DNA from: Rikenellaceae bacterium
GTDB taxonomy: Bacteria; Bacteroidota; Bacteroidia; Bacteroidales; Rikenellaceae
Assembly: GCA_015059905.1 (NCBI GenBank)
Contig: SUZN01000007.1
Coordinates: 103,141-167,140 of the forward strand
Length of the DNA: 64,000 nt
Reading direction: 5' to 3'
The notes under the pieces: model-generated
Seen by the model: the letters and a program-made list of their open reading frames with translations, nothing else
Told to the model about the DNA's origin: nothing
Database searches by the model: none
Part shown: piece by piece, positions 8,100-12,089 of the stretch
Layout of the letters: each line of letters opens with the position of its first letter
Position numbering within the stretch: position 1 is the stretch's first letter
Made by a program: the position numbers and the translations under genes

Positions 8100-9746
<1,647 letters not shown>

Positions 9747-9760
9747 TTAGGTTAATCAAA

Positions 9761-10030
9761 TTAGCAGATTGCGAGGATGTCGCTCTGCTTCATAATAAGG
9801 TAATCTGTGCCATCAACATTGATTTCGGTACCAGCATACTTGCCGTAGAGGACTGTATCACCCTCCTTAACCTCCATCTTTACCTCTGCTGTGCCTGGAC
9901 CTACGGCTACAACCTTACCCATAAGTGGCTTCTCTTTTGCTGTGTCTGGAATAAAAAGACCGCCTGCGGTCTTCTCCTCCGCTGGATTGGGCAATACCAA
10001 TACGCGGTCTGAAAGTGGTTTAATTGTCAT
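9761..10030 (-). CDS. groS: Co-chaperonin GroES
   Basis: [35 protein letters not shown]. Confidence 0.99.
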
Positions 10031-10086
10031 AGTATTTTGTTTTAGTTTATGTTATTATTTCATTGTTTACACACGCCATTTATATA

Positions 10087-10103
10087 AGCAAGCAGTGTGC
10101 CAA
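10087..10103 (-). promoter_or_regulatory. Sigma54 (RpoN)-type -24/-12 promoter upstream of groESL
   Basis: Minus strand TTGGCACACTGCTTGCT; GG-N10-GC spacing; fits TGGCAC-N5-TTGCW. Confidence 0.75.
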
Positions 10104-10122
10104 ACCCTGGGTGGCACATATT

Positions 10123-10159
10123 TTTGTCAGTCCCCACACTTTATGCTGACAAAATGTCA
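10123..10159. promoter_or_regulatory. Inverted TGTCA/TGACA elements, candidate enhancer-binding-protein site
   Basis: TTTGTCAG-N15-CTGACAAA, overlapping palindrome TGACA-AAA-TGTCA (10147-10159). Confidence 0.6.
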
Positions 10160-10259
10160 CACCGAGAGATGTTTTTCTGCCTACATTGTATTTATATGTC
10201 ATCTAAAATGCGAAGTTTGCAAAATTATTTCTAATTTTACGAACTTTTTCGAGATTATT

Positions 10260-12089
10260 ATGAAAAAATTATTGACACTATTTACTTTTATATGCTCTTT
10301 GGCTCTTTTTTCAGCCTCTGCACAGAACCTTGACTATGATGCCATAGCACCCCACCCCCGTCTGCTACTCACCAAAGGTGACGTGAGCAAGATGCGTGAG
10401 TTGCCTACCAAATCGGCAAATGCTATGACCATCCACCAGATGATTATCTCCGAAGCTGATGGCTATCTCAATGCCGAGCCTATCAAGCGCGAGATTGTGG
10501 AGGGCGCAAAGTGGAACGCGCCACGCGAGGCCCTGAAGCGAGTGTTCTACCTCTCTTATGCCCACGCGATGACCGACGATATGCGTTATGTAGCAGCAGC
10601 CGAGCGCGAGATGCTGGCAGCAAGTGCTTTTGAGGATTGGAATCCGTCACACTTTCTGGATGTGGCAGAGATGACAATGGCGCTCTCGATTGGTTACGAC
10701 TGGCTCTACCGCCGTCTGTCGGTGCGCTCACGCAGTATCATCGGTACTGCCATCTACGAGAAGGGTCTGCGCGCATCGGAAGGCGAAGGCGTGAACTTCT
10801 GGGAGCGAGAAGATAATTGGAATCAGGTATGCAACGCGGGTATGATTTACGGTGCGCTGGCAACATTGGAGCGTTCGCCAGATTATTGCAAGGCGTTGAT
10901 TTCAAAGTGTATAGAGTCAAACAAGAAGGCGCAGAAGATATATGAGCCAGATGGGGCTTACCCCGAGGGTTACGCCTATTGGGAGTATGGTTCTGGCTTC
11001 GAGGCATTGCTGGTGGCAGCCTTGGAGTCATCGCTCTCAACACACGCAGGCATTGCCGACAACAAGAATTTCCTGCGTTCGGCAGAGTTTATGAATCACC
11101 TGGTAGCACCTTCAGGCAAGCTCTTCAACTATGGTGATTGCAGCTACGACACTGCCACTTGTATGCCTGTCAAGTATTGGTTTGCCCGCAAGATGGGCAA
11201 TTCATCAATTGTGGCTCTTGACGAGAAGTCAATCAAAGAGAAGAAAGTTACGAAGGATGCGCTGTTGCCACTATATATGATTTGCGCCATAAACATCGAC
11301 TTGAGTAATCCGCAACTTCCAACGCAGAAAAGCTGGCAGAGTCGTGGCGAGGTGCCAATATATATATACCGCAGTGGCTGGGATGCCGATGATGCCTATT
11401 TTGCCATCAAGGGCGGCAAGGCGCAGAACAACCACTCTCATATGGATGCGGGCTCGTTTGTATATGAGCTAAACGGTGTGCGCTGGGCAGTCGATTTGGG
11501 GGGCGAGGATTACAGCAAGCTGGAGTCAGCAGGTGTAGATGCAGAGAACACTACGCAGCAGAGCAATCGCTGGGATGTGTTCAGCATAGGTGCCGCCTCA
11601 CACAACACACTCACCTTCAACGGCACACATCACAATGTGGGTGGCAAGGCAGAGATTCTAAAGTTCCACGACACACCACGCGAAAAGGGCGCAGAGCTTG
11701 ACCTTACGCCCATATTTGCCGAACATGCACAGAGCGTCACTCGTACCGTTATACTCAACAAGAAGAATCACCTCACAGTGACCGATAACATCCAAAATGG
11801 CGTAAGCCCATCAACCGTAGAGTGGCATATGACAACTACTGCGGCGGCGGAGATTGTTTCACCCCAAACGATTATGCTCACGCAGGAGGGTAAGACACTC
11901 TACTTGCGCCTGAAGGCACGCTCAAGAGCCACCGCGAAGATATGGCCAGCCGACGAAAAGTCGAAGGGTGCTGCACGCGTAGGCTTTATCGTGGAGTTAA
12001 AGTCGGGCGAGGATGCTACGCTCGAGGTTACGATGTCGCCTACAAAACCAAATGTAATCTCACGCATCAAGCTGACCGTATTAAAATAA
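10260..12089 (+). CDS. Heparinase II/III-family / alginate-lyase-like secreted polysaccharide lyase
   Basis: Signal peptide MKKLLTLFTFICSLALFSASAQ; NNHSHMDAGSFVYELNGVRWAVDLGGEDY; start reassigned from 9891 because the upstream part overlaps groES and its promoter. Confidence 0.85.
   Translation: MKKLLTLFTFICSLALFSASAQNLDYDAIAPHPRLLLTKGDVSKMRELPTKSANAMTIHQMIISEADGYLNAEPIKREIVEGAKWNAPREALKRVFYLSYAHAMTDDMRYVAAAEREMLAASAFEDWNPSHFLDVAEMTMALSIGYDWLYRRLSVRSRSIIGTAIYEKGLRASEGEGVNFWEREDNWNQVCNAGMIYGALATLERSPDYCKALISKCIESNKKAQKIYEPDGAYPEGYAYWEYGSGFEALLVAALESSLSTHAGIADNKNFLRSAEFMNHLVAPSGKLFNYGDCSYDTATCMPVKYWFARKMGNSSIVALDEKSIKEKKVTKDALLPLYMICAINIDLSNPQLPTQKSWQSRGEVPIYIYRSGWDADDAYFAIKGGKAQNNHSHMDAGSFVYELNGVRWAVDLGGEDYSKLESAGVDAENTTQQSNRWDVFSIGAASHNTLTFNGTHHNVGGKAEILKFHDTPREKGAELDLTPIFAEHAQSVTRTVILNKKNHLTVTDNIQNGVSPSTVEWHMTTTAAAEIVSPQTIMLTQEGKTLYLRLKARSRATAKIWPADEKSKGAARVGFIVELKSGEDATLEVTMSPTKPNVISRIKLTVLK

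Follow-up and report, generated by a model that had tools for sequence, protein, structure and literature searches.

We analysed a 64-kb window (the whole stretch of 64,000 nucleotides taken from contig SUZN01000007.1 of a Rikenellaceae bacterium), with attention to the promoter region of the chaperonin genes groES and groEL (groESL). Both genes lie on the minus strand: groES (9761–10030) encodes an 89-amino acid (aa) protein (PF00166; Pfam and NCBIfam), and groEL (8100–9731) encodes a 543-aa protein of the GroEL equivalog TIGR02348 (Pfam and NCBIfam). Ahead of groES, TTGGCACACTGCTTGCT occupies 10103–10087 of the minus strand and is a sigma54 −24/−12 promoter element identified by its pattern and its conservation. 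The GG at 10101/10100 and the GC at 10089/10088 give the exact GG-N10-GC spacing described in an initial annotation of this DNA, and the sequence is near the consensus TGGCACG-N4-TTGCW; the perfect pattern TGGCAC-N5-TTGCW has a single match in the window, which is this element. The initial annotation placed the element about 57 bp upstream of the groES ATG (10030); the placement holds, although the counted spacing is 56 bp. From standard sigma54 geometry, the transcription start is predicted at 10076, 12 nt downstream of the C of the −12 box, which would leave a 5′ untranslated region of about 46 nt. Transcription by sigma54 RNA polymerase requires an activator and ATP, and sigma54 promoters are inactive without an activator. 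The gene for sigma54 itself (rpoN), the absence of which had been named as a reason to abandon the prediction, is present in this genome (2.25 Mb, 92% complete) as one intact, open copy encoding a 471-aa protein (PF04552, E 1.8e-51).

Conservation of the groES promoter element

We compared the 250 bp upstream of groES in this genome, in 36 same-genus genomes, and in families across the order Bacteroidales (order-level relatives of this genome exist in more than 100 families). A GG-N10-G element, mostly spelled TTGGCAY-N5-TTG, was present in 56 of the 57 distinct groES upstream regions (25 families) at 30 to 113 bp from the ATG, and the mean element score of these regions was 21.4, compared with 16.4 ± 1.5 (standard deviation) in dinucleotide shuffles. 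The TTTGGCACA motif is invariant among the seven closest relatives. At the level of the phylum, we examined 80 named groES loci, including those of Flavobacterium, Maribacter, Zobellia, Chryseobacterium, Echinicola, Dyadobacter, Chitinophaga, Alistipes, and Muribaculaceae, and found TGGYAY-N7-G in 77 of them, with 1.2 expected from shuffles and a shuffle maximum of 5. The GG...G core, the conservation of which had been suggested as a check, is hence kept upstream of groES in nearly all members of both sets. The element owes its significance to this conservation and to its constant position at groES, not to pattern counts, and its retention across the phylum needs selection to be accounted for. 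We conclude that the sigma54 promoter of groESL is almost certainly real.

Phased TGNCA boxes and the probable associated regulon

The initial annotation overlooked the second half of the switch, namely the phased TGNCA boxes that lie upstream of the element. A dyad of the form TGNCA-N3-TGNCA, TGACATTTTGTCA, is found on the minus strand at 10147–10159 (roughly −83 to −71) and represents a putative enhancer; it precedes the −24 box by 56 bp. Three single boxes lie on the same strand: TGCCA at 10112–10116 (offset −13 from the −24 box, a position occupied by a box in 17 of the 35 same-genus promoters), TGACA at 10125–10129 (offset −26), and TGACA at 10197–10201 (offset −98, found in the seven closest relatives). 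Upstream of the element, the 35 same-genus promoters together contain 143 TGNCA boxes, compared with 14 in shuffles, and TGNCA-N3-TGNCA is the commonest arrangement (34 dyads versus 0.05 in shuffles), a gap of 3 being favoured over all other gaps between half-boxes. Between species of the genus, the dyads are displaced in helical steps of about 10.5 bp (offsets of −25, −45, −56, −66, and −77 from the −24 box), and phasing at 10.5 bp has a vector strength of 0.90 within the genus; across the phylum, 43 dyads give a value of 0.86. Phylum-wide phasing together with the preference for a 3-bp gap points to a protein that needs to face the sigma54 complex, and would otherwise be hard to explain. The TGNCA dyads thus look as expected for the upstream activator site of a sigma54 promoter.

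A total of 394 Bacteroidales genomes were searched with the composite pattern TGACANNNTGNCA, 20–50 bp, TGGCAYNNNNNTTG, using no gene information; the search reveals what this arrangement attaches to and does not measure the number of genomes that use it. It returned 33 matches, compared with 0 for the reversed pattern, and 27 of these lie 7–113 bp upstream of proteostasis genes, as judged from the downstream DNA and Pfam: hsp20 (12), dnaK (7), groES (2), lon (2), Clp_N (2), grpE (1), and htpG (1). A separate search within the genus added one further htpG (L089). This genome has 41 dyads, and a well-spelled sigma54 element together with a recognised gene occurs only at groES (offset −56) and at htpG (offset −24; G000:C11:173050). 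Judged from these sequences, groESL belongs to a broader regulon of chaperone and protease genes, which corrects the view of it as a lone case, and the existence of a sigma54 regulon with its own enhancer appears very likely.

The remaining six composite matches (L099, L105, L107, L108, L120, and L125) lie away from proteostasis genes and could be fortuitous or mark targets of another kind; at L107 (G142:C429), the composite element precedes a 124-aa protein without a Pfam match, a possible new regulon member. Three of the six strict sigma54-like matches in this genome (L037, L038, and L040) were rejected as intragenic, antisense, or without promoter position. Two others are promoter-like and have no TGNCA dyad: C11:354068 (L042), before a 201-aa lipoprotein without a Pfam match, and C11:194176 (L041), before a 447-aa porin-like protein. 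Both may be targets of another activator.

Candidate activator

Sigma54 activators are bacterial enhancer-binding proteins (bEBPs), which we called at a cut of E 1e-30. This genome has three, on C1 (403 aa), C4 (375 aa), and C6 (448 aa). The C1 protein (G000:C1:135433–136641) has a Sigma54_activat AAA+ domain, in which the GAFTGA loop and the Walker motifs are all present, and a Fis-type helix-turn-helix (HTH); it has no receiver domain and is thus not an NtrC/AtoC-type response regulator, and its score with the NCBIfam pspF model (265.8) is below the cut-off for a PspF equivalog (443.6). The C4 protein (L063:4679–5806) has a degenerate receiver and an AAA+ domain without an HTH or other DNA-binding domain, and is universal in the order; the C6 protein has receiver, AAA+, and HTH domains, and its gene adjoins a histidine kinase gene.

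An ortholog of the 403-aa type was found in all 30 genomes examined, at 48–78% identity and with paralogs far below, and its HTH recognition helix (SERTLYRKIK) is almost invariant among orthologs. In three genomes (G037, G038, and G055), it is the only bEBP found, and all three keep the sigma54 element at groES. The C4 and C6 types are both disfavoured as the activator, as the number of bEBPs varies between genomes and these three have neither type. Further, seven order-level genomes (G039, G040, G041, G042, G043, G050, and G058) encode the 403-aa type within 5 kb upstream of groES and in the same orientation, and it is linked to groES in 32 of the 80 phylum loci, the order in Flavobacteriia and others inspected being miaB-bEBP-lptE-TPR-secG-groES-groEL. 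In this genome, the gene adjoins lptE, not groES. We therefore regard the 403-aa, miaB/lptE-linked bEBP as probably the activator of the groESL promoter, where it would bind the TGNCA boxes. The activator- and ATP-dependent control of groESL put forward in the initial annotation thus gains support from sigma54 biochemistry, the phased boxes, and the ortholog present in every genome examined. Because the 403-aa protein has no receiver, switching by phosphorylation is unlikely; speculatively, it could be controlled through direct titration by a chaperone or other partner.

Proposed mechanism, rival explanations, and known systems

The sequences directly show a conserved element with phased boxes, the co-occurrence of the two with proteostasis genes, and a universal bEBP with linkage to groESL. 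From these, we consider it likely, with good confidence, that transcription of groESL starts at a sigma54 promoter of a proteostasis (heat-shock) regulon that is ancestral to Bacteroidota and is activated by a bEBP from phased boxes. At TTGGCAC-N5-TTGC, RNA polymerase containing sigma54 (RpoN) would be held in a closed complex; a hexameric AAA+ bEBP, most likely of the 403-aa type, would bind the tandem, same-face TGNCA boxes 25 to 88 bp upstream via its Fis-type HTH and, under protein-folding stress, would spend ATP to open the complex. The inducing signal would be unfolded protein or heat. No CIRCE (controlling inverted repeat of chaperone expression) element was found in the 64-kb window, in agreement with the initial annotation, and HrcA was detected neither in this genome nor in 20 relatives by a search that recovers HrcA from 7 of the 14 control genomes. 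CIRCE is also absent in P. gingivalis, where other mechanisms must operate (PMC3646045). On balance, we lean towards the broader view that the main heat-shock response of Bacteroidota is run by sigma54 and one receiver-less bEBP that senses folding stress and acts through TGNCA enhancers, in place of RpoH and HrcA.

Several observations weigh against these proposals. Allowing one mismatch, the sigma54 pattern has 3 matches in the window compared with 3.1 expected, and TTGGCAY-N5-TTGY has 6 matches genome-wide compared with 3 for the reversed pattern; such counts, near chance, would favour a fortuitous sigma54-like match at groES, but the conservation at groES refutes that explanation, the gene-blind regulon search also speaks against it, and we regard it as extremely improbable. 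One genome (G005, locus L044) is the only examined Bacteroidales groES without an upstream sigma54-like element; we note that it has two rpoN copies and 5% contamination. The sequences share ancestry, so that the phasing statistic overstates their independence. The composite pattern is strict (TGACA as the first half, TTG at −12) and misses most promoters in most genomes, and dnaK, clpB, and hsp20 were not located in this genome. The bEBP is tied to the boxes by elimination of other bEBPs in three genomes, by gene linkage, and by conservation of the HTH; the proximity to groES could be a relic of an old gene order with no regulatory meaning, and the elimination would be less secure if further bEBPs score under the E 1e-30 cut or lie in unassembled regions. 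Finally, in a same-genus subclade (L027, L030, L032, L033, and L034), TATCTTTG lies directly downstream of the element, which in four of the five loci has the weaker spelling TTGGTAC-N5-TTGTT (L027 retains TTGGCAT). Loss of rpoN or of the bEBP was rejected as a cause, both being present, and a promoter hand-over may be in progress in this subclade.

If the sigma54 promoter is accepted, the TGNCA boxes could still bind another regulator, such as the OmpR-type protein RprY, with a different bEBP activating the promoter, possibly from solution. RprY binds the groES, dnaK, and clpB promoters of P. gingivalis in electrophoretic mobility shift assays, and expression data suggest repression (PMC3646045); further, the universal HTH-less bEBP of this genome (375 aa, C4) is of a type noted to be enhancer-independent in Bacteroidetes (PMC3372290). 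However, htpG is not bound by RprY (PMC3646045), yet htpG carries the dyad and sigma54 pair here, and an RprY motif is stated neither in that paper nor in one further paper. The boxes also stay in helical register with the −24 element, a pattern that fits an activator in contact with the sigma54 complex, and in three genomes the HTH-bearing ortholog is the only bEBP found. We consider this alternative unlikely.

A vegetative promoter, or read-through, could instead mainly drive groESL, with the sigma54 element adding little. The initial annotation saw no TAnnTTTG box, but one exists on the groES strand: TAATTTTG (10227–10220) is a possible vegetative −7 box of the Bacteroidota sigma-ABfr type. 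It stands at exactly −124 relative to the −24 box in seven close relatives (this genome included), TAnnTTTG occurs in 21 of 35 same-genus groES promoters compared with 2.4 expected, and GroEL is required in all conditions, whereas a sigma54 promoter is silent without its activator. On the other side, TAATTTTG has no good −33 partner, the position of the −7 box shifts between clades of the genus (−124, −54, and +19) while the sigma54 element stays constant, the frequency outside the genus (1 of 21) is at chance level, and the element conserved through the phylum needs selection. That the vegetative sigma dominates therefore seems to us improbable; TAATTTTG may supply basal groESL expression, and sigma54 may not be the sole groESL promoter. 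The intergenic region is shared with a divergent plus-strand gene (10260–12089), a pair retained in close relatives; its product is secreted (N-terminal MKKLLTLFTFICSL) and, judged by eye only, heparinase/alginate-lyase-like.

The sigma54-dependent groESL regulon proposed here resembles and departs from several known systems. In rhizobia, a chaperonin operon (Bradyrhizobium groESL3) is under the control of the bEBP NifA and sigma54. That operon is an extra copy tied to nitrogen fixation, whereas here the single main groESL, a general chaperone regulon, and a different enhancer are involved. Like PspF of the phage shock response, the candidate has an N-terminal AAA+ domain, no receiver, a C-terminal Fis-type HTH, and a presumed role in stress; unlike PspF, it has a long linker, a different gene neighbourhood, and predicted cytoplasmic chaperone targets. 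Coordinate control of groESL, dnaK, grpE, htpG, clpB, lon, and hsp20 recalls sigma32 (RpoH) and HrcA/CIRCE, but would here be exerted by sigma54 and an enhancer; HrcA and CIRCE were not found (RpoH was not searched for). Using position matrices, a recent study (PLoS One 2025, PMC12316311) reported sigma54 promoters enriched at Bacteroidota GroEL/ES, DnaK/J, GrpE, IbpA, Hsp90, and ATP-dependent proteases, and states, citing a Blattabacterium genome paper, that groES and grpE of B. thetaiotaomicron depend on sigma54. Sigma54 at groESL was thus already predicted for the phylum; that study assigns no upstream site or activator, and the present analysis adds the phased enhancer motif, the regulon evidence from the gene-blind search, and a candidate activator. 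No earlier description of the enhancer, its phasing, or its activator was found in the open literature (subscription journals and preprints lying largely outside coverage).

Bacteroidota are a dominant gut and marine phylum, and a phased enhancer with a single candidate activator makes their heat-shock control directly testable. An essential chaperonin would be placed under ATP-dependent activator control, which could explain the retention of rpoN and of a 403-aa-type bEBP in genomes where further sigma54 activators are nearly absent.
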